This document shows, piece after piece, positions 1,653-57,072 of a DNA stretch of 64,000 nt (the stretch's first letter is position 1; every line of letters begins with the position of its first letter). The notes under the pieces are model-generated. The model searched no databases. It was not told the DNA's origin and worked only from the letters and a program-made list of their open reading frames with translations. This stretch comes from Cymodocea nodosa (lineage: Eukaryota; Streptophyta; Magnoliopsida; Alismatales; Cymodoceaceae). The DNA is taken from assembly GCA_036874045.1 (NCBI GenBank), contig CM072337.1:25084001-25148000 (forward strand). The letters run 5' to 3'. The position numbers and the translations under genes are program-made.

Positions 1653-4600
1653 CTGAAACAAGGTTTCAAATTCCAATCTAACAGAATCTGTATTTTCTTT
1701 GCCACGCCATCTTTTTGGCATGTAATGTGTATGCTGAACAACAAGTGACATTGCTTCTTCAGGATTGTGAACTGGCAAATCATCAGTTACAGCAGCTCGA
1801 CTAATAGCTGTCACAGTTCCAAAAACAGCAGCATACCAAAGTAAATTACGACCAAATATCTGCACTCCAGAGAATCATAGGTCAAGCCAGCTTATTATTA
1901 ATCATAAGTAACTGTGGAACAGAAACTGTGTTTAACAGCCTTACATGACCCTCAAGTAGTGATTTTTCTAGAAAAGCAATAATGATTAGAATAGCAGCGA
2001 AGCCACCAGATACAAAAGAAATGAATTTAGCTATTAGAGAAATGATATGAGATGGAAATTGCTTCAGATAATCAGAAGCATGCATTACACCATTATTGAT
2101 CCTGTGCTTGAACAAGTGATCCACCTGAAATGTAAAAAAGTTAAAAATATATATAAGGGTCATAACACAAGTAAGGTGCGCAAGATGCCGTACTAATGCT
2201 TAATGTTCAAATATTATCAATTACTGAAAAAATTAGTTAGTAGTGGGAGGACATTGTATTGGAATGTTAAACTCAGAAAAACATGGTTTGCTAATAAACA
2301 TGAAGAAATGATCAAACAAGATAACAAATAAGATTCCAGCAATTAAACAAGGTGGAGTCATTCCCATCCAGTTGGAAAGAGCTAGACTGTACCATTAAGA
2401 ATTATACTCTGATGAAAGCATATCATTAAGAATTATACTCTGTAACAAAAGCATAAGAAAGCAAACAGAAGACAAGGAAAAGTGGAAATTGGTAGATTTT
2501 ATTATTCCCAACTGAAAAGGTAAAGAGCTTACGTTGGCTTCCAAGGATGGTTTTCATTTTTTGCAGACATATTGGGGACAACTTCTGGACAAGAGGAAAA
2601 TAAATTTATCTTTTCCTAGAATTCTTATCCTTTCGAAGTCCATAAACCAAATAAAATTTATTCAATTTTTTTCTTATACGTAACATTACCTAACCACATT
2701 GGTGGCACAGTTGGACCTTCCCTAGATCCTATGTCAATGAAAATCTCATGTACTGGGTTTACCCTTAACCTCTTAAACATGTATAGAAATGCAAGTAAAT
2801 CTCAACACTCAAAATTTAGATATGCATATGACCAATCTTAGTTCTAGAAATTTGGTTGACTCCTCTTAATTTGAGAGAATAAGCTTCCAACAAGTTGACC
2901 CACTACCGTTCATGAGGGTTAATCGACAATAACATATTTAGCTTGGTCTTATATATTTTACTCAATAATTCTTTTAGTTTCATTCATAAAAAGTGTTAAA
3001 TATTTAAGTCAAATGTGACATGCATTGTTATTCCCCGATATTCTATAACCCCAAATAAATAATGACATTGTCATCTCTCTTGTGGATAGCCCTCATTTGC
3101 ACAACTGGATCAGCAAACAAATGGATAGGAATGAATTAGTATTTTTGCATGTCAAATGCATAATAAAGATGGGTCTGAAAGCACAATGTGATAAATGCCA
3201 GTAAAGAGCATAACAATGAATTACATTTTTCAGATAAATAAAATTATTAATACCTCATTGAACTCTCTGAAAATCCACCTTGATAAGTTTGACCACCTTC
3301 GTGATGATGCAGTACTTGGACGTTTGTAGAACTGTTCAGCGTGTCTCAAGAAAAAGTATACCAACATAAAGATAACAAGGAAAGGTGAAAGAAGTAGCAT
3401 CACAATCCCAACTGTGACCAGTCGCTTTCTCAATGAAGAAGGATTAGAAATGAAATCCCTCCGGATACAATAATTTCTGGACAAAACAACCATGATACCA
3501 ATTTTAAGGAGAAAGAAAAACAATAAATGCAACTTGTTTCTAAAATTATAGTATTTGAAGGATCAATGAATTCATAGACTGTTAGAAGTAGAATTTAAAA
3601 TTTCAGTGCTAAGTAATTCACAACAGCATTTTTTTAAGCAGGAAGCATCTCACATGATCAACACTTCAGTAAGATCAGATCAAATTTGGTATTAGAACAT
3701 ATATTCTCCATTTTTTTCCTTGATTAGGTTCGAAGAGGTGTATCCCCCACTAAAAGTAATTTACATGATCAACAATTTATTTAGATATTTTTTATCTTAG
3801 AACATAAATTTTATATTCATTAGGACTGAAAAGAAGGTATATCCCACATATACTCTTTAAAAGTAAGCATTTGAGCAACAGATGCACACCTGTCAAACAT
3901 GCTTTGGAGTATGCACCAATATAGCGTCCATTCAAATGTTTTTGTTAATACCAAATGGTTTTTTCTTCTGCATGATTGAGAGCTGACTGCAGGACCAGCA
4001 CCAGGAATCCATGAAGATATTGGAAAAGCAAGAAGCCCTTTGTTTAGCATTCCAATCAGGTAGTTCTCTTTCCGCATTATTCGCATCACTATCTCATGAC
4101 AAGATAGATCTTTGACAACACAAAGCTGTTGCGAGTGCTGGATTGCCACAACCTTTTCCAAGATTATTGGCCAAGGTGTTGTCTGAACTTCCCGATCTGT
4201 AACATTGAGGCTGAAAAAAAGAAGGAAAAGCATTCAGTTCCTCTTAACAAAACTTAAAAGCAGATTTATGTGATGAAGTACGATCATTACCTATTGTTAT
4301 AAAAATGACGTATCTCCAGTGTGTCTTTTAACTGTGCAAAGAATCTTAGAAAACAGAACAAGAGATAGACGGTAAATATGGCAAGGTATCCGACAATAAT
4401 GGCTTTAGAAAATGTGAAAGGAACTAGAGGATGACTGTGAATGGCTTCTTTAGCTAGATCACAGGGTTTATTTCCCACATTAACTGCATCAGTCCCACAT
4501 TTAGCATTGAGAAGACCATTCCAGTCAACAAATAATAAGAAGAAACAGGAAAAACTTATGGTGAAGCTCAAACTCAGAAGCTCGACGATCCACTTAACAA

Positions 4601-4859
4601 TGATGCACCAAAGTCCTTTCTCACAGTAATAATTGTACACCCTCTCAAAAAATATATCTAGGTCAGCAATTGCATCTGTCTTTAATCCTTCACCATTAAG
4701 AAATCCAGAAGGGCTCTCACTTCCAGAACTTGCCAACCTCTGATAATCAGATAGCTCTATCTCAGGAGGTGCGTCTACCAGTAGTTCAGTATTCAAGGAA
4801 GATTTGCCTCGCCAATCCCATTTAAATATGACGGGACTCTTCCAACCACTAAGCATCAT
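1653..4859 (-). CDS. ATG9: Autophagy-related protein 9 (3' part outside window)
   Basis: ATG9 is the multispanning lipid scramblase of Golgi-derived vesicles that feed the growing phagophore. Five coding exons are visible: 4291-4859, 3890-4210, 3254-3476, 1945-2124 and 1653-1859. All have GT-AG borders and keep one frame, giving 500 codons; plant ATG9 is about 860-900 residues, so some 40% lies beyond position 1. The start is the double Met MMLSGWKSP, as in other plant ATG9. Recognisable parts are the region EIRHFYNN/SLNVTDREVQTTPWP joined across the first intron, the core LRHAEQFYKRPSTASSRRW, WIFREFNEVDHLFKHRI joined across another, and EGHIFGRNLLWYAAVFGT. Hydrophobic membrane segments occur near residues 95-115 and 150-175 and again in the later exons. 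No lesion is seen in the visible part. The identity is certain from sequence; the function is inferred from the family. Confidence 0.95.
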
Positions 4860-7726: not shown

Positions 7727-7985
7727 GGAAGATATTACCAATGCAACGAAAGACAAGTTTGCGGTACTTGTTGGAACTTTTCGTGGTTACTGGTGGCAAT
7801 TGGATGGATATTTTTTTGTTTATTAGACGCACATATTTTATTTATTGGAAGATATTACCAATGCAACGAAAGGCATGTTTGCGGTACACGTTGGAACTTT
7901 TCATGCTTAAAGGTGGCAATTGGATGGATATTTTTTTGTTTCTTAGACGCACATATTTTATTTATTGGATGATATTTTTTTATTT
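7727..7985. repeat. 120-bp direct tandem duplication
   Basis: The segment starting at 7731 (GATATTACCAATGCAACGAA) recurs exactly 120 bp later at 7851. The two units stay alike over the whole period, with scattered substitutions, and the start of a third unit (TTATTGGATGATATTTTT) follows at about 7962. Because 120 is a multiple of three, the repeat yields a repetitive open frame on the plus strand (7741-8004), but the frame has no recognisable protein and is probably incidental. Confidence 0.85.
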
Positions 7986-7989
7986 TTAT

Positions 7990-8780
7990 AATAAAAGTAT
8001 TTAATCCGTTGTGATGGATGCGTATATATGTTTTTCTTAACATGTAACATGTACTTACAGGGAATAATTTTACAGGAATTTCTACATTTGTGATGGATTC
8101 AAATAAAAATGCCAAGTTGGTGGCTGACCCTTATGGATTCATATGTCCAGGTAGCTTAGTCCAAGCATTTCAACTAAGTTCTAGTGCATGTAACGACAAA
8201 TAATTTTCGAATCTCAAATGCACATTCATCATCCTTGTATCTTTTCTTATTTTAAGGTAAGGTTTTGCACCTATGGCTTCATTGCATTGATGTGATTTTC
8301 TACCATCTATTTTGTTATAATTTGAAATCAACAAGATTGCATTGTGCTATCGATGAAATACATGCTAAATCAACGATTTTTCAAGATGAAAATGCAAGAT
8401 TTGGGAATAGCATAGGTGAGATATTCCAAGGTGATCATGTGTATTCCTAAGAAATTGAACACATTTCTTTTGCATTCGAATGAAATAAATATGCTAAGTA
8501 ATGAAATACGGTACTCTGAAACGGAAAATTGACTACTAATGGCTCTACTATTTTTTTCCTAAAAATTAGACATCATTTTTCATGATTTTGAATTCCGAAA
8601 TTACTAATAGAGAGTTTCAACATACAATTTTTGGACTTATAAAAGGTAACAGTACACAATATATATATAAATCTTATGGTATATATGTCACACTTCAAAA
8701 ATTGAAAAATGACAATCAACGCAAAAATTCAAGAGGAGATTCACAAAATAAATAAAAAAGGAAATGAGAATGGAAAACCT
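7990..8780. other. Intergenic, no gene seen
   Basis: AT-rich sequence with only short frames. Nothing recognisable before the C-tract at about 8780-8800 that precedes the LTR-like segment. Confidence 0.55.
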
Positions 8781-9206: not shown

Positions 9207-10175
9207 GGGGGGGTTTGTGCAATCGGAATCTGATGGAATTGAAAATTTTTTATGTCAGATTTCGAGTCATGAGGTGTTTGTGCATTTTGGAATTCAAATT
9301 CTCAAGGAATTTGAATTCTAATCATGTGTAAAGGTTGGAATTCATTTTCCAAAAGATCGCTCGACGCTTACCCTCCCCTGTTGAAGTATATATTGTTAAT
9401 ATTTTTTATTTAATTAATCATTTTAATATTTGTTTATTAAAATAAAAATATTAATTATTTTATTATTATTAATATTATTTAATTTTATAATATTAAAATC
9501 ATAAATATTATTTAATTCAATTATTATTATTATTTTATTTATTATATTATATTATTTAATATATAATATCAAATTTTCAAAAACCATATAATTTTCCTAA
9601 CTTTATGTGGCTAACACAAACGAAGTCTTAAAAGTCATTTATGGCTAATAAAATGTTTAGAATTATATTTTCTTATAATCAAAGTATTTCAATAATTATT
9701 TATTATTTACTTTCATTTATTCACTTCATAATAATTATATTTTTATAAAAGTTATTTATTATTACATTACAAGGAATATAAAATTTATAATTAACCTTTT
9801 GTTGTTTTAAACATGTATTATAACTAAAAAGTTATCAATTTTTGTAATTTTTGATTTATTTTATATAATGATAAATGATATATAAACATTTATTTTAATA
9901 ATATATTCATTTATTAATGTCAACAATTCATTAATAAATTAATTACATTTTCACTAATTATTTTAAGTCAATACTTAATTTTATTAAAAATCAATTTTAT
10001 TCAATTCCCTCCAATTCTGTCATGTGCACAAACACCTGGAATTCAATTTTCGTCAAATTCCTAAACGTGCACAAACACCTAGATTTTGAATTCTTTCCGT
10101 CAAATTCTGTAGAATTCAAATTCCGTTAGAATTCAAATTCTGCGAAATTCAAATTCCAAGTGCACAAACCCTCTC
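9207..10175 (+). mobile_element. PIF/Harbinger-type MITE, copy 1
   Basis: A 969-bp non-autonomous element. It starts GGGGGGGTTTGTGCAATCGG and ends with the near-inverse GTGCACAAACCCTCTC, flanked on both sides by the 3-bp duplication TAA (9204-9206 and 10176-10178), the hallmark of PIF/Harbinger insertion. It has no coding capacity and an AT-rich middle. Its last ~420 bp closely match the last ~420 bp of the autonomous element at 25635-30526, and its first ~130 bp match that element's other end. It is in the same orientation as the autonomous copy. It lies inside the LTR-like segment. Confidence 0.9.
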
Positions 10176-13511: not shown

Positions 13512-14509
13512 GGGGGGGTTTGTGCACCTGGAATTTGAATTCCGCAGAATTTGAATTCTAACGGAATTTGAATTCTACAGAATTTGACGGAAAGAATTCA
13601 AAATCTAGGTGTTTGTGCACGTTCAGGAATTTGACGGAAATTGAATTCCAGGTGTTTGTGCACATGACAGAATTGGAGGGAATTGAATAAAATTGATTTT
13701 TAATAAAATTAAGTATTGACTTAAAATAATTAGTGAAAATGTAATTAATTTATTAATGAATTGTTGACATTAATAAATGAATATATTATTAAAATAAATG
13801 TTTATATATCATTTATCATTATATAAAATAAATCAAAAATTACAAAAATTGATAACTTTTTAGTTATAATACATGTTTAAAACAACAAAAGGTTAATTAT
13901 AAATTTTATATTCCTTGTAATGTAATAATAAATAACTTTTATAAAAATATAATTATTATGAAGTGAATAAATGAAAGTAAATAATAAATAATTATTGAAA
14001 TACTTTGATTATAAAAAAATATAATTCTAAACATTTTTTAGCCATAAATGACTTTTAAGACTTCGTTTGTGTTAGCCACAGAAAGTTAGGAAAATTATAT
14101 GGTTTTTGAAAATTTGATATTATATATTAAATAATATAATATAATAAATAAAATAATAATAATAATTGAATTAAATAATATTTATGATTTTAATATTATA
14201 AAATTAAATAATATTAATAATAATAAAATAATTAATATTTTTATTTTTAATAAACAAATATTAAAATAATTAATTAAATAAAAAATATTAACAATATATA
14301 CTTCAACAGGGGAGGGTAAGCGTCGAGCGATCTTTTGGAAAATGAATTCCGACCTTTTAGGTTGGGAATTCATTTTCCCAACCTTTACACATGATTGGAA
14401 TTCAAATTCCTTGGGAATTTGAATTCCAAAATGCACAAACACCTCATGACTCGGAATCTGACGGAAAAAATTTTCAATTCCGTCAGATTCCGAGTGCACA
14501 AACCCCCCC
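13512..14509 (-). mobile_element. PIF/Harbinger-type MITE, copy 2
   Basis: A 998-bp element, near-identical to copy 1 but inserted in the opposite orientation. Both ends are clean GGGGGGGTTTGTGCAC / GTGCACAAACCCCCCC inverted repeats with TAA duplications at 13509-13511 and 14510-14512. It retains a subterminal hairpin (about 14337-14382) whose arms read GAAAATGAATTCC..., which copy 1 has lost. No coding capacity. The clean termini and intact duplication suggest a younger insertion than copy 1. Confidence 0.92.
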
Positions 14510-18120: not shown

Positions 18121-21100
18121 TAAGGGAGGGTTATTGCTAACTTGGAAAGTAAGGGACAATAGGATTAAATGAAAGTTAAGAAGAAAAAAAAATAAAATAA
18201 AATTTCATGTGTTAGGTGTCGATCGAAAAGTAAGGGAATTACTTTCACTTACTTTTTGAGTATTAAAATTGTTGGTCCTTAGGCTTTCCAAAGGCTTCCT
18301 TCGGAAAATCTTAAGAAAATCTTCCCTCGCACGTCGATGTAGTTATGTCCTCGTGCCTACCCACAACTACCGTCGAGATCGTGCCTGCAGCTGCCGTCCT
18401 CAGGCTAATACCTACGTCCTCGTGCTCACACACATTTGCCGTTGAGATCACGCCCACAACTCCCATCCTCGCCACCATCGACCTCGTGCCCCTGCATCTT
18501 TGGGGGGGTTAGTGACTGACGGAATTCAACTGACGAAAAGGAAAATTATTGAATTCCGTCAGAATGTTGTTAGTGTGTATTACACTTGACGGAAATGAAA
18601 GTCGAATTTTATCATTGTATAGAATCCAAAAATTTCCTTTACCGTCAGAAAATTTTCGATCGCCCCCCTTCAGAAAATTTTTCTCTCTCTCTCGTGCCTG
18701 ACGGAATTCGTAAGACTGATAAGGAAGATTTACTTGAGGACCTGCTAGATGAGTTGGAAGAGTTAAATATTATTGACGACATACAACCAATGGGAGGGAT
18801 ACATATAGAAAGCAATGCCTAAGTTCGAATGACTCAAGAACAAAGAAAAGAAATGACAGATAAGATGCAAGAAGATATGATGATGACAATGTGGGATGTA
18901 AGAACTAGATGATATTATTTCGTATTGTAATATTTCAATTAAGATGTATTTGTATTTTTCGAATATTAGTTGTAATAAACTTTTGTCAGAATTTTCATCA
19001 GAATTTTCCATCCTGCACTAAACCCCTCTCAGAATTTTCATTTTCCTTTCCGTTACAAATTTTTCATTTCATTTCTGTCAAAATTTTCTTTTTCATTTCC
19101 GTCAGAATTTTCCGTCATGCACTAACACGCCCCGTTGTCGTCGACCTCTCACCCCCTACGTCCTTGCGCCCACACTTGCAACCTCTCGCTTGCAAATTGA
19201 CCGTCGAGCTCGCTGGTAATCCCCTGCAATATTTAGATCTACATTTTTGTAATCCTGTTTTGCATATCAATGTTTGACTTGTCGGGTATATTGAATCATA
19301 CTTTCACATCATAGGGCATGCCTGCCTGCCTGTTTTGTTTGTCTTGTCTATGCTTTTATCGTCAAATTTGTTTGAGGTCCTAGCGGTGTTTACATCATTT
19401 TAGAAGTAAAAACGTGATGGAATCGTCCATGTAAATAATTCTGAGGAGGTCCTAGTGGTGTCATGCAATATTGCTGCCATGCTGCGCCTACACGGTTTTG
19501 ATCGATCCACACTACTGATCAAACAAGCCCATCTCTAGCTAGCTGGTTGTGTTCCAGTCTTCTTTCAGATTTCTCAAAGGAGAAAATAAGGCTGGTTGGG
19601 TTTGATTATCATAGAACCCAACTGCAACGAAAAAAACAAGAGGAATTGAACGAATTGTACCCTTCCTTCCATGGCAACTAATAAAGCTCTTACAGTTCTG
19701 ATGAGCTTCCATCCGTGTCCCTGCTTATTAATTAGATTATTTGACGGTACTTGTACTCTAGAACAACTAATTGAGACCAGAAGATCAGAAGAAATCGAAG
19801 CAATGCAGATTGCTTGCATGCCAATATGAGTTGATCAATGTTTGCATCTTGTTTTGCTCAAGCGTTTTCCTATTTTTTTTGTAGTCTTTTAAGATTATAA
19901 TCAATATGGTTTGTAAATCATAGTTTCCAAATAGAAAAATATCAAGATTCAAAGCTTGTATCGTAGGCGTGCCTTTGCAGTTTTCTGGTTTTAAGCAGTC
20001 CGAGTTCTTTCAATTTCTGAAACTGATTGGGAAAGAAAGCTGCATATTTCAATACACTTCATGAGCTTTCTTTTGATGCCGATTTTATGAATTTTGGTGC
20101 TGTGTGGTGCATGTTATAGGTTTTTGAAGGTAGAAAGTGATTACTGTTTTGTCTGCCATACTTGAGTTGCACCTATTTCTTTCCAGAATTTTCTACAGTT
20201 TTTTTACCATGTGGATCTGGCCTTGAGTAATTTTCTTAGATAGTGCATTCTTTGAGCATTCTAGTGATTATTTATTTACAATTTTTGGGTTTGTAAAAGT
20301 TGATTTAGGAAGTTTTAAAATTGGATGTAATTACTAGTTACAATCTGTAATTTATTTTCATCGTAGCTTTGTTGGATTTTCTGCAACATCTTCTAGCTAC
20401 GAAAGTAGGGCTGGATAATTTTCCCATTTAGTGCACTTTCTAAGATTTCTAACAAGTATTTATTTGTGAATTGGATTTATGATTTCTAACATGTAGATTG
20501 TTTACATGCTATATTTTCAAATTCGTTTTTACATATGAATTTTTAAACAATATGACTTGTTAAATAATTTATTTTTCATATGAGTTATTAAACATAACTT
20601 GCATTTGTGTATGTAGTATTTTAATATTTTTGTAGGTATCTTAACATAATGGTTAATTCAAAAAGAAATTATTACACTTGAAGTGTAAAAGTAAATGAGA
20701 AAATCTTAAATATTTTGGTTGAAGTTATTAACGAAAGAAATGCAAGAACACATCATGAGAAAATTCAAGTGAAAACTTAGAATGAGATAATAAAAAAATA
20801 CAATGTTTGTATAAAAGTAATAATTACGAAAAAAGATGTTGAGAATATAATGAAAATTTAACATTTGATGTATAAGAATTACTTGAAGATTACAAAGGTT
20901 AAGATTATGTGAATAAATAGACAGATATTAGTATCAAAATTTTAGATGAATTTGTAAAGGTAATATTTTTTTATGAAATTAGGAACTTTATTATGCCACA
21001 TTTTTTAATATTTGACATATTTTTGTTTAGATACATCTAGAATGCAAATAATGTAAAGGGATGTCTTGTTTAATTTATGACCAACTATAAGTATTATTTA

Positions 21101-22010
21101 AAACAACTATGACAATTGAAAATTATAGTAAGCAAGTAGTAGACAACATACAATTTGATGAAAATATGAGAGTTTCCCAAGATGAGACATTATAGGATGA
21201 TGTTCCAAAGTTTACATAAGTTCAACATTAATTTTTTAATTCTGATCCAAGAAAAAAGAGTTTCCCTTTAAGCATTAATGACATTCGAAAAAAAGAAAGA
21301 TAAGCAAGCAAAGTTACACAAAGAATCTCAAGAAATAATTACAATAATAATTATAGACATGATAAAGGTTTTTAAAATGCATTGTGAGAAAGAAGACATT
21401 TGTAAGGTTAAATTACATTGTATTAGTGATATAAAAGAAAGAAAATTAGAATAAAATATAAAAAAAGCAACGATAGTTGTTTAAACTTAACTTCTCAGGT
21501 ATGAGTAATGTTAAAATCTTTTAATCAATAAAGTTAATGTAAAATATAGAAATGTAAGATAGAATTTCTTGCATTTCCAATCAATGTGCGTGTCATGTGG
21601 GTACAATATAATTTGTCCACTTGAACTTATATTTATATGATTTTTGTGGTGGATGTTTCATGATATGTTAAACTATTATAGTGAATGTTTGATGATAATG
21701 TTGTGGTATGTTAAACTTTTGTGGTAAATGTTTGATGATATATTGTGTTATGTTGAATAATAATGTTATATGTTTGAATTAACATTGTAGTAATGTTAAT
21801 TTTTGATATCTTTTATTATTTATTGTAGTACTTAATATACAATTTGTCCGCCTTAGTTTCTCTCTCGCCAGGTGGGGGAAGCTGTCGGGGTCGTCTGCAA
21901 GGAAAAAAGGGGGCAACGGGGCAGTAAGTGGGGAAATCCTCGTGAACCAAAAAAAATATCAAGGGGATGAAATTACCATTTACCCCCTACCTTACACTAC
22001 TTGACTTTTA
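18120..22010 (+). mobile_element. Decayed Harbinger-like region with Myb/SANT-like remnant
   Basis: Around 18310-18500 and 19135-19220 there is a C/T/G-rich repetitive block built of CGTCCTCGTGC-like units. It resembles in style the block at the start of the intact Harbinger element (25806-26200). Further on, 20650-20960 on the plus strand translates in pieces to phrases such as LVEVINERNART, WNEIIKKYNV and MYKNYLKITK, reminiscent of the Myb/SANT-like DNA-binding domain of Harbinger ORF1 proteins, with stops between them. Borders and terminal repeats could not be found. A smaller element (18502-19134) sits inside the C-rich block. This is an interpretation of weak similarity. Confidence 0.3.
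18502..19134 (+). mobile_element. Deletion derivative of a second Harbinger-type lineage
   Basis: A 633-bp element starting GGGGGGGTTAGTGACTGACGG and ending in the approximate inverse of this (CCGTCATGCACTAACACGCCCC). Inside, 18730-18910 encodes LEDLLDELEELNIIDD and, after a stop, MTQEQRKEMTDKMQEDM and MTMWD. This parallels the C-terminus of the intact transposase at 29960-30040 (TQEQRKEIADQFRENI then MYAMWD). It is therefore an internally deleted transposon that kept the tail of its transposase gene. The flanking trinucleotides (TTT and GTT) do not match, so no target duplication can be claimed. Confidence 0.7.
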
Positions 22011-25516: not shown

Positions 25517-25715
25517 TGTTCATTTTAATTTTATTCTGATGTGTACACTCCTGAAACACTATATCATACATGCCTTCCACTTCATTAATTGCTAGAACAG
25601 CACTTGATTATTTGATATCCCATCTCGCGTATTAGGGGGGGTTTGTGCACTCGGAATCTGACGGAATTGAAAATTTTTTCCGTCAGATTCTGAGTTAGTG
25701 GTGTTTGTGCATTTT

Positions 25716-25806
25716 GGAATTCAAATTCCCAAGGAATTTGAATTCCAAACATTAACAAAAGTTGGGAAAATGAATTCCGACCTAAAAAGGTCGGAATTCA
25801 TTTTCC
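25716..25806. repeat. Subterminal hairpins of the Harbinger element
   Basis: Two inverted repeats lie in series. The first, 25716-25746, has 14-bp arms GGAATTCAAATTCC / GGAATTTGAATTCC around a 3-bp loop. The second, 25765-25806, has 19-bp arms beginning GGAAAATGAATTCC with a 4-bp AAAA loop. The same motifs occur in the MITEs. Such subterminal structures are candidate transposase-binding or replication-slippage sites; that role is inference. Confidence 0.8.
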
Positions 25807-26210
25807 GACATTCGGCCTCGTCGCATCCCGCTCGTCGTCCTCGCCCGCACGGTCGTCATCCTCGCCTGCACGGTCGTCGTCTCGCTCGTCGCCGTCGCCT
25901 ACGTGCTCGTCGTCTGGCTCGTCGCCCTTGCCTGCGTCATCGTCGTCTCGCTCGTCGCCCTCGCCTGCGTGCTCGTCAACTCGCTCGTCGCCCTCGCCTG
26001 CGTGTGTCGTGTCACTCGTCGCCCTCGCCCGCGTGCTCGTCGTCCTCGCCTGCGTGCTCGTCGTCCTCGCCCATCGCCCTCGTCTGCACGCTCGTCGTCT
26101 CGCTCGTTGCCCTCGCCTGCGTGTGTCGTCTCGCTCGTCGCCCTCACCCGCACGCTCGTCGGCCCCTCGTCGATTCCCCCTCGCCGATTCCCCCTCGCGC
26201 TCTATTTCTC
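25806..26210. repeat. GC-rich degenerate repeat block inside the Harbinger element
   Basis: Short units such as CTCGTCGCCCTCGCCTGCGTG and variants (CGTGCTCGTCGTC) recur many times over about 400 bp, in an otherwise AT-rich element. All three plus frames stay open through it and yield R/S/A/L/V-rich low-complexity peptides, which I take to be artefacts. Its position directly before a consensus splice donor at 26224/26225 suggests a promoter plus first non-coding exon. Confidence 0.75.
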
Positions 26211-27353
26211 TTGAACGAACGCAGGTATGTGGTATCGCAGATTTGCGTTGATTTGAGAAATTTTGTCATGAGGTATGTGTATCAGGCCTTGATTTGAGAA
26301 TATTGCTAAATTTTCAATCCTTGTCAATGGTTCTGCTTACCATCTTAGATGTGGTCTTGGTTTTAGGTAAGGGTGTCTCTTATATCTATTAGTGTTTGCA
26401 TTTATGGTAAATTTTATTTGTAGATTGTGTTCTACATTCTATCACTCAAAGGAATAACTTAATTCAAGGATTCTCCCCTGGGGACACCCTTGTTTACGGT
26501 ATTTGGATCTCATTGATTTTTTATGATATTGATATGAAATAGGTTATGTATCCAGTTTGTTTGCACAGTTCCTTCTACATTGTGTTGGGATTGTAAGTGA
26601 ATTTTAACAAATCTCCAGTCTTCGATATTGGACCCTGCAATCTGAAGAGCGCATGGGTTAGGAAGTAGAGACTTCCTCTAAAATATTTGGGATTGCTATT
26701 ATCATGCTTTTATCTGATAAGTATTGATTTGATGCCTGTCATTGAGCATTTTGAAAAGCATTGCTCTGGTTGGGCTGACTAGCTTTTCTCTTTTGTTGGC
26801 AAATTTTCTCGTCCCTTTTGTGCTATGTAATCTACCAATTTATTGCTTTCTGTCATGATGATCTCGATTTGTGTGGCAGTATGATTAATAGAATTCAAAG
26901 TCAGTTTTTGTGATGCGGTGATATGAAACAAAATCCCTTTGGATTTCTCATGGGAGCTTGGCACTAATCTTGTAGATCAAAATGGTAGGTGGTCTTGGTT
27001 TAAGGAATATTTGCTTTGTGAACTTGGCTTTGCTAGAGAAATGGTTATAATGATGGTTGTAGACAGTCCATCTTTACTATGGCATGGTATGATATTGGGG
27101 AAGTGGTAGCAGGATGGTTGGTTAGAGGTATGAGGTATTTTTTAGTTACGTCTACAGATATCTTGATACATTTTATTTCTGAGTTTAGTTAAGGTTTAGA
27201 CCCTGGAAATCCTTTGGAATGTTGGTCTTGTAGTTATTGTAGCCTTTTTGCATTCATAATTTATGTGCTTGTGCATTTATGTTGTGATAATGTCCATCTC
27301 TATGTTATGTTGTGGTGCATTTTATATTTTGTTCATATATGTATTCTTAGGAA

Positions 27354-28453
27354 ATGGAAAACAAGAAAGGATGTGGAAGATCTTATTTTAGTTGGAGTGT
27401 TCAAGCAGATGAGATGATATTAAGAAAGGTGTGTGATGCTATTAAGGAGGGTAATGGTAAAACTCCTGATGGAAAGATACGAGTTGATACTTGGCTGAAG
27501 GTAATTGATGATTACAATAAAGAAACAGGAGGTAACATCCAAAAGAAAAATATTGATAGTCGAATGAAAACATGGCGACAAATGTACAAGATTTATACAA
27601 AGATTGGTGCACAAAGTGGTTGGGGATGGAACTACATTCATGGACATACTGATATCGCAAAAGAAGTTTGGGATGAATTTGTTATGGTTAGTTGAATTTT
27701 TTCAAATTTAAATTTAACATTTGATTAGCTTATAATTTGTACTAATATTTTTTTTCCTAATAGGTTCATCCAGAGTGTGCACAGTATAAGGGTAAAGCAT
27801 GTCCTATATATGACCAGCTTCAAATAATATTTGAAGGAAATCTTGCAACAGGCTCAACTAAAATGAGTACAACAAATCTGAGAGCAGCTGTGAACTTGAA
27901 TGAAGATACAAATAACATTGATAATGTACCTCTTACACAAAATACTATGGAATTTGAGGCTGAAACTCAAGATCCTTTTCCTACTCAAACTACTTCTCCT
28001 AGTTTGAATGATGTAGACTCATGTAGGAAAGGAAAACGTCCACGTCCACATGCTGAATCACAACAACTTATGGCATCTACAATGAACAATGTTGGTGTAT
28101 CACTTATGAATTATTTTAGTGAGGATTTGGAAGAAAATTCGAGGAAAATGGCATACTCAGAGCGTGCCATACAACTACAAGAGAACATGATATCGATCCA
28201 AAAGGAGAAGATGGCATTTACACAACGTATTGAAGAAAGGAAATTAGCATACATGGAGAGGAAGATGGAATTGTTAGAGAAAAAAGATCGTGAAGAAGAT
28301 GATGTTCTCACTATTTTACTTTCACTTACAGATCTTACAGAAGAAGAAAAATACAAGGCAATGCAATTATTGGAGATAGAATCAAAGAAGAATCAATTTA
28401 GGCGTCTACCACCGAACATGAGAACTTCATGGTTGAAGTTCAATTTGAAATGA
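27354..28453 (+). CDS. Harbinger ORF1: Myb/SANT-like DNA-binding protein
   Basis: Two exons, 27354-27686 and 27764-28453 (GTTAGT donor, TTTTTCCTAATAG acceptor, phase 0), encode 340 residues. The first ~130 residues carry a Myb/SANT-like domain of the kind found in plant L10-interacting-MYB-like and Harbinger ORF1 proteins: FSWSVQADEMILRKVCDAI, IRVDTWLKVIDDYN, KKNIDSRMKTWRQMYK, SGWGWNYI, AKEVWDEFV and HPECAQYKGKACPIYDQL. After an acidic and polar linker with a basic patch (GKRPRPH), the C-terminal third is strongly charged and helical, probably a coiled coil (QENMISIQKEKMAFTQRIEE). In PIF/Harbinger elements this protein works with the transposase in DNA binding and nuclear import. The ATG follows a TTCTTAG acceptor by three bases, so the leader intron supports this start. 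Confidence 0.9.
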
Positions 28454-28631
28454 TGTGCTTTTTTCATTTAAAAATTTAAATTTTGTTGAACATGTTTGAA
28501 TTTATTGAACTTGTGTTATCCTTAATGTTATGTAACATGGTCTAAACATTTTGTTGATGTATGCATTGTTTTGCATTGTATGCTATTATTATGTTTTCTT
28601 TATTAAATCATAATTGATATGATAGGTACAG

Positions 28632-30043
28632 ATGCAAGGATTGGAATTTATGAAGACGTCTATGTCCATTATTAATGAAGACGAAGAACGAAGGAAGAAA
28701 AAAAGAAAAGTTATATTGGGAACATGGCAATTCCTATGCGGAATTACTATAAATGGGATTCAAACATCCACCACTCGTATATACAGTAAGGAAGGAGCAC
28801 AATATGTACAAAGATTGTTAGATCCATCGTCACCATATCAAGCATACAATTGCAGGAAAATTTATCGAATGAGTCAACATGTTTTTTCACAATTTTGTGG
28901 ATTATTAAGAAATATGAAAGTAATATCAGATAGTAGAAATATGAGCGTAGAGGAGAAACTTGCTATTTTTTTAGTAACAGTTGGACAAAATCAAAGGTAT
29001 GGAGTAACCAGAGAGCGTTTTCATCGCTCAGCATGGACTGTTAGTACATATTTCAATGAAATGATAAATGCTATATTAAAAATAGGTGATATACTTTTAC
29101 CTAAACATGAAGTTGCTACACACAATCGAATTCAGAATGATGTTAATGTTTATCCATATTTCAAGGTACACACTTCAATCTTTATTTCTATTTTAATATT
29201 TCATGTTATTCATTTATATATTAATTAAATTTGTTTTTGGTATGAATAGGATTGTATAGGTGCTATTGATGGTACACACATTAAAGCCACAATTTATGGA
29301 AAAGAGAATGCCCGATTTAGGAATAGAAAAGGTGAATTGTCACAAAACGTATTGGCTGCATGCAATTTTGATATGGAATTTACTTATGTTCTCAGTGGGT
29401 GGGAAGGTTCAGCTGCTGATGCTCGACTCCTTCAAGATGCAACAACTCAATGCAATGGTTTGCAAATACCACGAGGTATACAACTTATGATCTACCTTTA
29501 TGTTACCTTATTTTCAACATTGAATTTATTTCAAATGATGTTCAAATACATGCAGGTAAATTTTACTTAGTTGATGCTGGATTTCCAAATAGGCCTGAGT
29601 TTATATGTCCATTTCGAGGTGTTCGATATCACTTATCAGAATATGAAGGAAATCGACAACCAACAAATGCAGTGGAAAACTTCAACTATAGACATTCACA
29701 GTTGAGGACAGTAATTGAACGTACATTTGGAGTAGTCAAACATCGTTTTGCAATATTACGAGGATATATGCCATTTCCTTTCACAACTCAAGCGAAAATA
29801 GTGTTGGCATGTTTTTTACTTCACAACTTCATTCGTAAAGCAGATAAAACAGACTTATGTCAAGATCTTGAAGATGAAGTACAAGAAGATGAACGTGATA
29901 TACAAGTTGAAGACTCTACAAATGTAGAAAGACAATATGAAATACTTAACACTATTGGGAACAACACACAAGAGCAAAGAAAAGAAATTGCAGATCAATT
30001 TCGTGAAAATATTATGTATGCAATGTGGGATGGTCGTGAATGA
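28632..30043 (+). CDS. Harbinger ORF2: DDE transposase (HARBI1-like)
   Basis: Three exons, 28632-29165, 29250-29475 and 29556-30043, with GT-AG borders that preserve the frame, encode 415 residues. The N-terminal half carries a basic stretch (RRKKKRK) and the helical region typical of the family (MSQHVFSQFCGLLR, MSVEEKLAIFLVTVGQNQRYG). The catalytic core shows all three acidic residues in context: CIGAIDGTHI (first Asp), YLVDAGFPNRPEF (second Asp) and RTVIERTFGVVKHRF (Glu). LACFLLHNFIRK follows as expected, then an acidic tail with TQEQRKEIADQF. The protein would cut at the terminal inverted repeats and insert at TWA, which agrees with the TTA duplication. The length suits the family. An extra 5' exon cannot be excluded because the ATG lies just after an ACAG. 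Confidence 0.93.
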
Positions 30044-30696
30044 AAATATTACAAACATCATAATTATAAATTTTTTGTAATATACCTTTTTTTTGATCAT
30101 TACGAGGAATATAAAATTTATAATTATCCTTTTGTTGTTTTAAATATGTAATATAACGGGAAAGTTATCAATTTCTGTTATGTTCTGATTTATTTTATAT
30201 AATGATATATTTAATTAATTGATAAATGATATATAAACATTTATTTTAATAATATATTCATTTATTAATGTCAACAATTCATTAATAAATTAATTACATT
30301 TTCACTAATTATTTTAAGTCAATACTTAATTTTATTAAAAATCAATTTTATTCAATTCCCTCCAATTCTGTCAAGTGCACAAACACCTGGAATTCAATTT
30401 CCGTCAAATTCCTGAACATGCACAAACACCTAGATTTTGAATTCTTTCCGTCAAATTCTGCAGAATTCAAATTCCGTTAGAATTCAAATTCTGCGGAATT
30501 CAAATTCCGAGTGCACAAACCCCCCCTTAGGAAGCTTGATGCCTTGCCAATTAAACAGATAAAATATTTGACAGCATCATCCAATTATTTTGTTTTATTT
30601 ATGTGATTTGATAGCTACATGTGAAATAATGATTTCACTGTACTAATATACTCATGATGCGCCTTTTTAACCACGGTTTTACTGAATTTTTTTTGT

Positions 30697-31285
30697 TCAA
30701 AAAACATTTTTTAAAACGTGTTTCAAATGCAGTTCATGTGTTTCAGTTCAAATTTATTTCATTTTCCTACCTTCTGATCTCTGAAATTGATGAAAAATAA
30801 AGAAAAAGAAAATATGAATTATCACATAATATATTAATAATATATAATTTTAATATAAAAATTATTTATGTCTTTAATAGATGAAAATTGATATTACAGA
30901 GATATGTAGAATAATAAAGATGTGTAAAATATATTTTATATTATAATAATTATTATAAATGACTTTATCTTATATTATATATAATAAATTTTGTTATTCT
31001 ATGTCTTATAAATAAATACAAAAAATATTTAATTTATTAATTTTAATATTTTTATTTTATAAATAAACATATATATTTTATATTTTATGATTTTTCGTCA
31101 TTTTCTATTCTATATACAAATATATGTATTTCAAATTTCATCATTTTTTGTTCTGTGCACAAATACCTTAATTTTCTACTGATTTTTCGTTAATTTCTGT
31201 CATTTTCATTTCTATCATTTTTTGTGATATTCCGTCATTTTATTTCTTCCATTTTCTAAGTGCACAAACACTACTTCATTGTTTT
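30697..31285. mobile_element. Decayed relative of the Harbinger MITEs
   Basis: Read on the minus strand from about 31277 the segment begins GTGTTTGTGCACTTAGAAAATGG. After some 100 bp rich in GACGGA/GAAAATGA phrases comes a second GTATTTGTGCAC (near 31157). This is the same architecture as the intact MITE ends (GTTTGTGCAC, about 70 bp of GACGGAAT phrases, then GTGTTTGTGCAT). The middle is very AT-rich. The other end (about 30730) is not a recognisable match, so it is old or incomplete. Confidence 0.35.
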
Positions 31286-32759: not shown

Positions 32760-34590
32760 TTTTAATTATTTTTATAAATTAAAATCTAATTATGCAATCA
32801 GTTAATCTATAGTATAATTCCATAATCTTACATGCATTAAAATTTTTACTTAATCTAAATTATATTTACTAAGATTTTTATTTAAAATTTAACGGAAATT
32901 ATTAAATTTTAAGAACATTTCATAGAAATTTTTATCGTATATTTATAATCAACTAATCTTAACATCTATATTATTATTTTTACCGTTTCATTTATTTGTG
33001 AAGGATGCAAAAATAACTCTCGAAAAATTTCTTAAGTATAACTTTTTCCTGTAGAGAGGTAGATAAAATTAACTAAAGCAGTAACCTAATTGTGAAACCA
33101 CAATCGGAGAGCAAGCTCTAACATTACATCAAAGTCCACACAAGTTAACATAAAAAAGGGAAATAATTGAAGAGATACAATTTTAATTTTTAACTACAAA
33201 TTAGTCATGTTCTTGAATATCGATGTGATATTTTTACAAGGATGATTAAAAATTCTATTATTTCTTTCTATTTAACAATTCCAAACAAAGAACATCAAGA
33301 ATGAATATTAAACTAATTTATTGCAAGAAAAGAGACATTAAAAGTTACGAGGAAAAGTAGAAGCACAAAAGTATCATTTAAGAAATTTTGTTTACTTTTA
33401 ATCGGAAAGGATTAAATTTCACAATCTAAAAACAGGTGATTTGTATTTTTCCAGTAAATGTTACCATGGAAGCAAGTTGTATTTTTTTTACAAGGTTTTC
33501 TTTAATGAATAATTTATCTTGAATGTAAAATCAAGATCTTAACTGAAACTTTAGTTCTCGAGATTTGTTTGTAAGGATTAAAATGTAAATCTTTATCAAT
33601 TAAAATAATATAACAAGATTTTAAAGTTTAAAGTTTATTAGACAAATTAATGCAATAAAATATAAAAAAAAGAACAATTTAAACAGAAAGGAAAATTTGC
33701 ATATTGTAGTGAAATGTGCCATTTATATAAAATGAAATTCACTAGTTTATTTGTGTACGTCGAGAAGTTTAGAAATAAAATAAATGAAAAATTCAGAATC
33801 TTGAAAAATAAAAAGTCTAAAATCTTAGAAAAAATTAAGATGTCTGTGTACATAATAGAAAGTCAGAAAAATTAAAATTCTCAAAGTTATTTGTGTCTAA
33901 TAGAATGTTTAGAATTAGATTATTATTTTTTAATTAAAGTACTTCAATAATTATTTATCATTTACTTTTTATTCAGAATTAGATTATTTACTTTACTTTT
34001 TAACCTTGGTGTTAATAATGTCATAAACAATACAATACTGATTAACATAAAGTTCTTAACATATAAGTACATAAATATAAATTTTCAAGATGCACTTATT
34101 ATAACATAACAATAACATAAACCATTACATATAAAATAATTTAAAAGTAACGTCCATCCTACGACCACAAGGCAAACAATTGGCTCAGACATATTTCTAA
34201 TCCAATTGACAACAAGCATTTTGATCAGATGTTCAATTGATCAATAAGTCCTTGGGTTTACTCATGCATTCAGCTTAACTACCGGTAACTAAGAAAATCT
34301 GACAAGATTCCCTCAACACTAATGTCGATCAAAGTAATAATAATCATATAACAAAAAATCCTAGTAACATTAATCATTATTGGTCAACAACAAAAAATCA
34401 TCACGTACCAAGCTCCTTCTCTCCTTTCTCAGTACACAACTTCAGGGGAGATAAATACAACTGCTAAATTAATCATCCGAGTTCAGTAATCAATACAACT
34501 TCAGTAGGATATGTGATGTTACGCTAAATTAATCAAGTTCATTCAAGTTAACAGTCAAAAACCCACAAGATCCAACTGCCAGATAAATAC
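32760..34590. other. Intergenic, no gene seen
   Basis: AT-rich with short frames only. Phrases such as GATAAATACAACTTCAG recur three times at 34450-34600, just before the Copia fragment, without a clear meaning. Confidence 0.5.
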
Positions 34591-38653: not shown

Positions 38654-41600
38654 ATGCCGCCGTTGACGAGAAGTCGCAAGCGGGATGGCGCCGGTGGTGC
38701 TGGCGATGATGTTCGCAGGAGGAGGAAGAGGAGAAGACTTCACCAATCCACGACAAATCGGAAGCTTCTGGTCGGGGAGGAGGTTGAGGTGTGTTGAAGG
38801 AGATGATGCTTTTTCCTTTTATTTAATGTGAAAACCGTGCTTTCTTTTTTGTGTGGTTTTCCTCTCTTTTTTTGTTGTAACTGTGGCATGTTTCAACTTC
38901 CTTCTGCCTTTTGTCTATTTTATCATGGATTGGTTTTTGTGTTTCCTTGAACGTTTTGAGTTGGAGTGCTGATTTTAATACCTGCATTGTGACTTCTATG
39001 GATCAAAGTTATGGATAAAAATTCATATATATATATATTTCTGATCTGTGCGTTTTCTTGTTTTTTCTGAGTTGAACTTTTTCCGTCTTCCTCATCCTTA
39101 TGTGCATAAAGCTTCCATTCGGTCCATGTTATAAATATCCGTGTCTGGTTCTTCATATGAATCGTTTTATTGCTTAAAATAACACTTATTACAGGAAAAT
39201 AAACGATACAAACTCTTATTCTATTAATTTTCTTACTTTCATCTACTTTGTGTTTTTTCATGCTTATTGTTTCATTTTTCTGAATCATACTTATTAACAT
39301 GGGTGCTAGGCGATGTCTGGCATTCGGGTGTGAGATGCCCTTGGTTAAATAAGTAAATAAATAAATAAATATTATGAAATACTACTGAATATGCATAATT
39401 ATTGAAATATATATTCATATGTATTTCCGAAAGGTACATGCCAGTATTATATTTTGATTTTATATTGGGGTTATTTATGTATTTGAATGTTATGGTCTGA
39501 ATCAGTTCAACCAAATTTGTTTCAGTTTATAACTATTTCCCATGTAAGTTTGTCTAGATTGTTGCTGTTTGAATTTTTCTTAGTTTGTGAGTAATGTCCA
39601 TGATCATTAGTTATGCTCCTCTTACAGGTACGCTTTTCTGACGAGGGGCTTAAAGGATCATGGAACTCAGGTGTTGTTACCAGCTGTGCAAATTGCATTC
39701 GCGTTGTCAAGTATAATGAGATGCTTGAAGAGGATGGTGTCACAAACCTTGTTGAATCAATATTAGTGTCTGATGCAATTGAAGGATTGTCAAATAAAGA
39801 ACCAAAAAATCATCGTGGTTGCATAAGGCCATTACCACCTCATCAGAATATCAACACAACAAAAATCACATATGGAATGTGTGTTGATGCTTTAGTCAAT
39901 GATGCCTGGTGGGAAGGTGTGATCATGGACAACAAAGAAGGTTCATCAACAAGGTTGGTATTTTTCCCAGACCTTGGTGATCAACATGCTATTACAACTG
40001 AGAGCATGCGTCTTACCTATGATTGGAATGAGGTTTCAGGTGATTGGAAGTGTCGTGGTTGTTGGGTATTGTTTGATTTAGGAGTCTTTCCTATTTCTAT
40101 AAGACAAGTATGGTATCTCCTCTCCAGTACTATTGCATTCCATAAAAAGATTGGAGATTGGGTTTTTGGATCACGGTCTACATGGCAAGAATTGGTGTCA
40201 GAGGTGATAGAAGAGGCTTTATCTGTTTCCTGTGGACAAGTTGCAGTGGATGATAATTTATCTTCTCAATTTGATGATGATCTCTGTGATGTACCTAATA
40301 TTGGCACTGAGGGACAACAGAGGCCTGTATGTAAAGATGATGCTCCATTGACTACTTTTGTTGAGAGTGACTCTGTCAAATGCATATCTCATGGAATCAA
40401 CACTGATCTGAGTCTTTCTCCAGAAGCTGAAAGGACTGAAAAGTTGGAAATTCCTGTAAATGGGGAGAGTATACCTTGTGGACGTTCAGATGATGTGTCA
40501 ATTTCAGAACAACGATTGAATGCATTAGCCAACTTCATTGGTGCATATCGCAACCAATCTATTCCTCAATCTTCTCTTAGCAGAAGAAGATGTAAGGATG
40601 CTCGTAAGAGTGCACAACAATATCTTTTTGCTGCAGGCTGGAAAATGAAGGTTGGACCTAGATGCAAGTGTTATGTCTCTCCCACTGGGGAACAGTTCTT
40701 CTCTTTTATCAAAGCATGTGAAGCTTGTGCTGGAGTTCAAATTTCAGTTAGAGAACCTACTGGTGAAACATTAACACTCATGAAAAATGCTGGGGTGAAG
40801 AGGAATTCTGAAAATCAAAACAATGAGATCCACACACCCCACCCTGATCATTATTCTTGGCAGCTCGAAGAAATTGTGGGTGAATACTGCCCTCAGGCCA
40901 TATTTAACTATAATCATCATACAAGGATTGAAAGAACTGATACTAGGCATAATGTAAAGAAGCATCTTGTTGCTCTGGGCTGGAGAATCTATCATAAATT
41001 TGATAAATCAGTAGGTAGGGTTTTTCATAGATTTCGCTACTGTGCACCTGATGGGCAATGTTTTTACTCTCTTCTGAGGATCTGCAAAAAATTGATGAAT
41101 GAACATACAGTAAAAATGCATTTCGGAGGTGTTCATGATAATGAATATCTGGCTATTAAATATCAACGTGAAGAGCAAAATCCTGATGCAATATTAGCTT
41201 ACGTTAAGTGTATGGAATTGAAAAGGTTGAAACAAGTATCTAATATTTCCAAGAAAGAGATTAACCAGAAACGATTGAAGGCAATGGCACATCTGCAAAG
41301 TTCAGGCTGGAAACTCGGGTATGAACAGAAAAAAGATAAGAATGAATTACGTTATTCTTCTCCTAAAAACAATTGTTTTCTTTCTCTCTTCGAAGCCTGC
41401 AAGTCATATCTGAATGAAATGAAAGAAAATGAGAACAATGGTTATGATTCTTTGATTTCTGTTGACAATGTCAGGGGCTCAAGGGAGAATAGTTGCAGCA
41501 CCAGTGATTTAACATGTAAAAATCAGCAATATAATTTATGTCAATCATATGTTGTGACTAGTACAGGTTCTGCATTTACCTCTACTCCATCACAGTTTGG

Positions 41601-44600
41601 GAGGCAAAAATCCATCAAACTACGACAAAGGAAAATTATAAAAGGTAAGAAGATATCAAAGGATGCATTGCTTTCTTCGTCTATCTTTCAAGTCCAAGAT
41701 TGCCCAAACTCTAAAAAAAGGAAGATATCTCAGTCACAAGTTAAACATAGTTGTAGATCACGCACTCGTATTTCAAGTCCTCTACTATTGCCTCACAAAC
41801 AAGCTAGGAGTGACCTTGCATCATTTAATGGTCCATGTAGACCTCGGACGGTACTATCTTTGCTTATAGAAAATAACATACTGCAACCAATGGTGAAGGT
41901 GCATTATCTAAATAAGAGAGATAAGAGTGTTATGATGGAAGGATGGATAACTCGTGATGGAATCAAGTGCATGTGTTGCGAGCAATTGTTTTCCCTTACT
42001 AAATTTGAGATTCATTCTGGTAGTGCCAACCATCGCCCCTCAGCTAATATTTTCTTAGAAGATGGAAGATCTTTGTTAGAGTGCCAGAAAGAGATGCTTG
42101 ATGGTATTAAAACCAAACATTTTCAACACAGAAGAGTAAAAGGAGACTTTTCCAATTTCTTGAGTGATGGCATTTGTTCTGTATGCCAAGAGGGTGGTAC
42201 ATTGGTGCTGTGTGATCATTGTCCGGCCTCCTTTCATTTAAACTGTGTTGGTTTGAAGGTTAGTCATTTTTTTCCACTTTTATATTTATATCGTTATTTG
42301 GCTAGACATGAAAAGCTTCTGCTTTTCTATCCAATTTCCTTTATTGCTGTAACTTATTTTTATAACTTATTCTGTAATCCTAGTTTGACCCTCATATGGA
42401 TTAAATATATCTACATTATTATGAATTATTACCGAGTTTCTTATTCTACATCTTCGTTTGCTTACAACTCCAGAAATAGTATATCTATCATTTAATATTG
42501 TCAAGTAATGTGATTTGTCTTTTCTGTCAAATTCTTGATTTTGGGGCCTGAAGATGTATGCTTTCATCATACCTTTTTGCTAGTTTTGTATTTGTCACCT
42601 TCTATATTTTGGAACCTGAAGGTGCATCATAAGTTAATGTCTATTCTAATTCTTGCATAAGTTTTGGTACTTGTTGGCTCTATACGTATGCTTGCTGCTT
42701 GTTTTTTTTCCTGCCTTCCCTTTATCAATCTTCACGGTTCACACCTTAGAAGAGAAAAACCTGAATATGTAGTGCTCATATCCTTCAAATCTTTGAATAT
42801 AGTATAATGAGTTATAGATTTCATCATTTCATAGTTTGTAAATATCAGTTCATGAATTCACATATATGCATGGATATACTGATAGATACATCCTCATAAT
42901 ACTCTGAACTAATAAACATGCACATATCCTAATATTTTTCCGGTATACTTCTCACAGTTCACCTATATACCCATAATCATCTACAAAGGCTCAAAGAGTA
43001 TATATGTAATTATCTCGTTTACATGGGTATATGCATGAAACATTAAGTCTATAAGAGAATATGTGCATACAATAGATGCATATTTGAAAAGCACAAATGT
43101 TGTGGAGCACAAGAAAAATCACTTTTAAAAGAATAAATGTGGCTTCCTTTTTCAAGACACGAAAAACAAAATAGGAAATACTGAAAAGCCTTAAGGCAGG
43201 CAACAACAACAAATCATTTATGTTTCCCTATGTTAGTGTTATATCTAGCAAATTATGTTAGTGTTAGTGGGTAAATGAATCCCATGTGTTATGTGAATCC
43301 TCCATTTGAATATCATTTTATCTTTTCAACACAATATGGTACTAGAGCCACCCTAAAAATGCCAGATGTTTTCACAAATCCACCCCTTTCACCAGCCACC
43401 AACCTCTCTTTCGATGTTGGCCTGCAGCAAAGGGCATCCCTTTTCCCTTCCCTTCTCTTCAGTTGGTTGTTCTGACCAGCACCTTTCACTGCCCATTCTA
43501 GGGAACCAATGGTCTCACAGCTGCTTGTCCATGTCCAGTGACTGCAAATTTTTGCAATAGAACAATATTTGGTCTGCACCCCTTTTGCCAGCCACCAACC
43601 TCTCTTTCAATGTTGGCCTGCAGCAAAGGGCCTCCCTTGCTCCTTCCCTTCTCTTAAGTTGGTTGTTCTGACAAGCACCTTTCACTGCCCATTCTAGGGA
43701 ACCAATGGTCTCTTAGCTGCTTGTCAATGTCCAGTGGCTGCAAATTTTTGCAGTAGAACAATATTGTTCTGTGCAACAGGTACATGCCTTTAGTACATGT
43801 GTTTTTGGGGTCTCCTCCAGTTCAAATTGGCTTTCACTCGCATCTACAGTTCAGATTTTGCTAGCTCCAGACAGTACAATGCAAAATCAGTTCTTGGTAT
43901 GCCCATTTTTAACTGTTTCTAGTACAGATCAGACCAATTTTTTGCCATCAATTTTCTCAGTGACTTTTGGTTCAGTGACCTTGCTGTTACATTGATTAAA
44001 TCAGCTGAAAGGAAGTAATTTTGGTGGTCTCAAATCTTTGATACTTTTCTTGGTACTCACCAGAAGATATTACACATTCTTCATCCGATGTTGAGGACAC
44101 TGCCTGTGAGAATTGATTTGTTGATGATTAAAGTTAACAAGGCACTCACCTAGGTGATGCCAAGGGCATAACATGGGGTCTAGGTAGTTGACACTTGAGT
44201 TCATTATTAGTTTATTTGGAACTTTAGGTGGATGTAATAACGGATCCACTTATTTAAAATAGGTTTTAGGGATTTTCTTTCAATCATTCCTCTTCTTTTT
44301 CTCAACCACTGGTATAGCTTCAACAGACTTCTTTGATGACTATAATAGCTTTGGTAGTGTCAACGACTTTAATGAGCTTCCTAGTGATGCTGGACAAGCC
44401 GTTGCAGAGGTTTTGACGTGTTGTTGGACAAGCTTGTCCTCTCCATTTGTGTGCTCCTCTTAACTGATATGCTTCTTTTTTGATGATGTTTTCAAGAGTT
44501 CTACATGCATTACCATGTTAAAATTTTAGTCTAGGATGTTAGAATAGTAGGCTTCCACCTTTTAATAAAATACTCTATAATAAATAGTAATAATGAAATT

Positions 44601-56940: not shown

Positions 56941-57072
56941 TGCATGCAGTGATTTATTGAGATCGAGAGGAGAAAAGTGGAGCGTTTAGTCCCACGCCAC
57001 CAAAACGCAGCCCTCTTCTTTTTTATGTGGTCCATTTCCTCTTCTCCTCACACCCCTCGATCTCCTCCTACC

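Follow-up and report, generated by a model that had tools for sequence, protein, structure and literature searches.

Transposons of the PIF/Harbinger superfamily have been described as requiring the products of both of their open reading frames (ORFs), with the ORF1 protein binding DNA and the transposase (TPase) providing catalysis, and as usually excising precisely (PMC2836001). Copies that keep both ORFs intact are a minority in the published surveys: 24 of 236 PIF sequences in the grapevine account (PMC2528002), and 66 putative autonomous PePIF1 copies against more than 3,000 non-autonomous copies and copies resembling miniature inverted-repeat transposable elements in the account of one orchid, Phalaenopsis (PMC6327408). 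We analyzed a 64-kb stretch of Cymodocea nodosa contig CM072337.1 (forward-strand positions 25,084,001 to 25,148,000; hereafter the window, to which all coordinates refer) and found that the 4,892 bp at 25635-30526 are very likely a structurally complete, probably young autonomous PIF/Harbinger transposon, probably PIF-like, inserted 115 bp past the stop codon of a gene with a glutaredoxin domain. The initial annotation of this DNA had proposed a complete element with both proteins, and the intact ends, target-site duplication (TSD), open frames and Pfam domains bear this out as a statement about structure only. Its remark that intact copies are rare holds insofar as they form a minority, but the grapevine and orchid counts indicate that such copies are not exceptional.

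Known systems were compared with the element by their published descriptions. PePIF1 of Phalaenopsis, from the PIF P lineage, is reported to have the same head-to-tail arrangement of ORF1 and transposase with two and three exons, a TTA TSD and a similar length (5,053 bp versus 4,892 bp here), but differs in its terminal inverted repeat (TIR; GGGYCYGTTTGGGGCAGCT) and in an ORF1 of 272 amino acids versus 340 here (PMC6327408). MtMaster and DcMaster-a, from the PIF M lineage, are likewise described with ORF1 ahead of the transposase in elements of 4.0-5.5 kb, and the DcMaster-a proteins (ORF1, 353 amino acids; TPase, 425 amino acids) are near in size to the 340 and 415 residues here (PMC2213677, PMC6327408), whereas their TIRs of 14-22 bp have another sequence and the transposases of the MtPH-M group are reported with one or two introns (PMC2213677). 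The Pifvine elements of grapevine are similar in their mostly TAA or TTA TSDs, two ORFs, TIRs of 20-35 bp and lengths of 5-7.2 kb, and a long non-canonical 5' region is said to be frequent in Pifvine-3 (PMC2528002). Rice Ping and Pong, together with mPing, resemble the element in needing both a Myb-like ORF1 and a DDE ORF2, in a 3-bp TSD and in the presence of an intron in Ping ORF1 (PMC4055405, PMC2836001), but occupy a branch apart from PIF in published trees (PMC6327408).

The ends of the element and the duplicated target site are directly visible in the sequence, as are copies of a TIR word just inside both ends:

25632-25634 (no strand): target-site duplication, left copy, TTA
25635-25657 (plus): left-end TIR, matching the right end at 23/23 bases
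25704-25711 (plus): internal copy of the TIR word TTTGTGCA, a possible protein-binding site
30376-30383 (minus): internal copy of TTTGTGCA, from word search
30419-30426 (minus): internal copy of TTTGTGCA, from word search
30504-30526 (minus): right terminal inverted repeat, 23/23 with the left end
30527-30529 (no strand): target-site duplication, right copy, TTA

The first 23 bases of the two termini agree at all 23 positions and the first 27 at 26, with one mismatch, and TTA stands on both sides, so the 23-bp matching termini and TTA duplication annotated earlier were recovered in full. Plant PIF/Harbinger elements were mined in a Medicago study by a TIR of at least 14 bp with the motif G(N)5GTT and a TTA or TAA TSD (PMC2213677). 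The TIR here begins with seven G followed by TTTG, which fits G(N)5GTT, and the element combines this motif and TIR length with a 3-bp TTA TSD, a DDE_Tnp_4 transposase and a Myb/SANT-like second ORF, the features that place it in the superfamily. With up to three mismatches allowed, the window contains six occurrences of a 21-bp TIR word (0.00 expected from shuffles): at the two ends of the intact element and at the four ends of two relatives, elements B and C. The 8-mer TTTGTGCA occurs 19 times (2.5 expected), with five corresponding sites in each of the intact element, B and C (two left and three right, TIRs included), one copy within ORF1 (27608) and three outside the elements (31156, 31261 and 35022). 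The recurrence of the word near the ends suggests that these copies are candidate binding sites for the ORF1 protein. For mPing, mobility is reported to be influenced by sequences inside the TIRs, but no specific promoting internal sequence common to mPing and mPong was found (PMC9921582). A literature search with four short words from the element ends returned no transposon paper, as judged by title and start of abstract.

Between these ends lie two ORFs, with the following parts:

27354-27686 (plus): ORF1 coding exon 1, Myb/SANT-like domain, PF12776
27764-28453 (plus): ORF1 coding exon 2, C-terminus matching PF24769 At2g29880_C
28632-29165 (plus): ORF2 (transposase) exon 1, ATG immediately after an AG
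29250-29475 (plus): ORF2 exon 2, containing D185
29476-29555 (plus): ORF2 intron 2, 80 nt, phase 1, codon 254
29556-30043 (plus): ORF2 exon 3, containing D260 and E308

Joining the exons yields stop-free proteins of 340 (ORF1) and 415 (ORF2) amino acids, in agreement with the uninterrupted proteins first annotated; both frames are open after removal of the three predicted coding introns, each of which starts with GT and ends with AG. ORF1 matches the Myb/SANT-like profile PF12776 (E 7.6e-9), and its C-terminus falls exactly on the cut-off for PF24769 (26 bits versus 26), a family that takes its name from an Arabidopsis gene. ORF2 matches DDE_Tnp_4 (PF13359, E 4.6e-27) over profile positions 1-158 of 158, and motifs identify the three previously noted DDE acids as a candidate catalytic triad, D185 (DGTH), D260 (DAGF) and E308 (ERTFG). 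Searches of non-plant collections gave two pattern matches for ORF2 exon 1 in viral_contigs and 52 for whole ORF2 in genome_contigs, none of them confirmed.

ORF2 intron 2 sits six residues ahead of the second catalytic aspartate, D260. A Triticeae PIF intron of 72-88 bp, reported as retained in 112 of 156 cDNAs and absent from 44 (PMC5543537), coincides with it in place and size and thereby lends independent support to its position. By analogy, those cDNA counts are a sign that intron retention may be common in such elements.

Upstream of ORF1, the element contains three hairpins, which were absent from the initial annotation, followed by a GC-rich leader and a long predicted intron:

25649-25695 (no strand): 5' hairpin H1, arms 17/18 complementary
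25713-25749 (no strand): 5' hairpin H2, arms 17/17
25765-25806 (no strand): 5' hairpin H3, arms 19/19
25807-26224 (plus): GC-rich, CpG-dense segment with tandem repeats, ending at the leader donor AG/GTATGT
26225-27350 (plus): predicted leader intron, 1,126 nt, 35 ATGs

Across the three hairpins, 53 of the 54 arm positions are paired. The 418-bp segment at 25807-26224 has a GC content of 69% (34% in the window) and 76 CpGs, and its composition and position make it the probable promoter and 5' untranslated region (UTR). We also considered that it might be a captured host promoter; searching the leader and leader intron against the window gave no match outside the intact element, B and C among the matches listed. 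The predicted intron has its donor (AG/GTATGT) after 26224 and its acceptor (TTCTTAG) ending at 27350, followed by GAA-ATG, so that predicted splicing would place the ORF1 start codon three bases past the acceptor, just as had been annotated. In rice, a "first intronic region" of Ping ORF1 is described (PMC4055405), which does not imply a placement in the leader.

The expression of ORF2 could follow more than one route. The 178-bp gap between ORF1 and ORF2 contains nine ATGs and one ATTAAA with no TATAAA or AATAAA, for which reason ORF2 would probably be translated poorly as a plain downstream cistron. A single promoter might instead serve both ORFs through alternative 3' splice sites, with the donor after 26224 joined either to the acceptor at 27350 (ORF1) or to the AG before 28632 (ORF2), the latter removing all nine gap ATGs. 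The AG just before the ORF2 ATG allows such splicing from a shared leader without demonstrating it, and it may well be there by chance: of 1,357 ATGs on the plus strand of the window, 93 (6.9%) come directly after an AG, and on this account we regard the shared-leader route as unlikely. For a Ping construct, the TPase promoter was presumed to lie in the intergenic region and the two genes appeared independent (PMC2836001).

Elements B and C and a set of decayed fragments, none of which appeared in the initial annotation, are relatives of the intact element within the same window:

9207-10175 (plus): non-autonomous relative B, 969 bp, TSD TAA (read from flanks)
13512-14509 (minus): non-autonomous relative C, 998 bp, TSD TAA (read from flanks)
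20664-21207: ORF1-like decayed fragment with many stops, tblastn E 6e-14 (search to E 200) and 2e-5 (search to E 1)
18832-18903: ORF2-like decayed fragment, tblastn E 1e-4
8346-8429: ORF2-like decayed fragment, tblastn E 5e-4
30801-30878: weak ORF2-like fragment, tblastn E 0.011

Alignment of B with C shows 98.3% identity (952 matches at 968 ungapped positions, plus 31 gap positions), and neither element gave a coding match to ORF1 or ORF2 by tblastn at E up to 1. Their 3' block, corresponding to 471 bp of the intact element, is 93-94% identical to it over ungapped positions (89.5-90% by BLAST), and their first 131 bp are 88-93% identical by the same ungapped measure. The middle of each (388 bp in B, 376 bp in C) had no colinear BLAST match in the intact element among the matches listed; very loose blastn gave AT-rich, non-colinear matches for it (best E about 1e-4 among those listed) and matches of 21-22 bp between B and the H3 region. 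With such a middle, B and C are not simple internal deletions of the intact element and more likely come from another source element. Since their ends are close to those of the intact element, its proteins might nevertheless move them in trans. The decayed coding fragments represent more distant relatives (33-58% amino acid identity in aligned pieces); tblastn matches in the search to E 200 were mostly chance. Downstream of the weak fragment at 30801, two minus-strand copies of TTTGTGCA stand 105 bp apart at 31156-31268, possibly marking the eroded 3' terminus of an older relative. At 33883-33968, a stretch that matches a portion of the B/C middle at 85% (E 1e-18) represents a further dispersed repeat or relic.

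By what is published on the superfamily, the Myb-like ORF1 protein would bind the element ends, the likely sites being the five TTTGTGCA copies (two left, three right), the ORF2 DDE transposase would catalyze excision, and reinsertion would occur at a TTA or TAA triplet that becomes duplicated.

We assessed the age of the element with a simulation of neutral decay (4,000 trials at each divergence level, with transitions twice as frequent as transversions and one indel for every 10 substitutions) in which any indel was fatal and the start, stop and 16 splice-site bases were required. The intact fraction was 49.7% at 0.2% divergence, 17.3% at 0.5%, 2.7% at 1% (108/4,000), 0.05% at 2% (2/4,000) and 0.025% at 3% (1/4,000), and none survived at 5% or 10%. 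Because simulated decay seldom leaves the element intact at 1% divergence or more, and because the hairpins remain so well paired, we infer that the insertion is probably young, although neither the simulation nor the hairpins and termini give it a date.

Several observations weigh against the picture of a young autonomous element. The observed/expected ratio of CpG falls to 0.42 in ORF1 (0.71 in ORF2, 0.78 in the rest of the window), and TpG/CpA stands at 1.38 and 1.37 in the two ORFs compared to 1.12, which may reflect past methylation of the element's lineage. The single mismatch in the H1 arms may be a change due to decay. The AlphaFold2 single-sequence model of ORF2 was poor (mean predicted local distance difference test score 33.5), as a result of which the triad is assigned from motif and profile only, and ORF2 gave no match to PDB sequences at E up to 1. 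An element with open frames may, moreover, still be silenced or damaged by missense changes.

The strongest rival explanation is an element that is open in sequence yet immobile, either silenced epigenetically or disabled by missense changes, and we consider this a serious prospect, only a little less probable than its opposite. Function is not gauged by open frames, and the depleted CpG and raised TpG/CpA of the two ORFs fit silencing. In the compared blocks, B carries 12 private changes, 10 of them C>T or G>A, as in methylation-driven decay, which suggests that the family is probably silenced here or formerly was; C has one private change in the same blocks. On the other hand, the leader retains its 76 CpGs (observed/expected 1.67), and the differences between the intact element and B/C, whose polarity is not assignable, are not enriched in C>T or G>A (6/36, with the reverse at 10/36).

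A second alternative casts the intact element as the family's master copy, as the initial annotation had suggested, from which the non-autonomous members arose and by which they are moved. Its ends are shared with B and C at the identities given above, and the TIR-word layout is the same in all three, but B and C are 98.3% alike and have in common a middle without a colinear counterpart there, leaving this origin improbable. Finally, the open ORFs and the borderline At2g29880_C match might point to a domesticated transposase gene pair retained for a host function, but both ORFs are bracketed by matching TIRs and a TSD, the hallmark of a mobile element, which makes domestication highly improbable.

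The structurally complete transposon lies in a gene-rich region. The glutaredoxin-domain ORF upstream (PF00462, 25004-25516) is on the same strand, and the element may sit in the 3' UTR of that gene. Gene pieces at 3820-4859, 39613-42495 and 56977-57786 carry ATG9, DUF7028/TDBD/Agenet/PHD and PMR5N domains, respectively. Together with the introns, these neighboring gene families suggest plant nuclear DNA. Tandem duplications occur at 43381-43765 (196 bp) and 7727-7976 (120 bp), with about two copies each at a 92% match.

An intact two-protein element together with non-autonomous relatives that have matching ends would offer a test case for cross-mobilization and for the expression of two ORFs. 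In other respects, the element is one further copy in a well-described plant superfamily.

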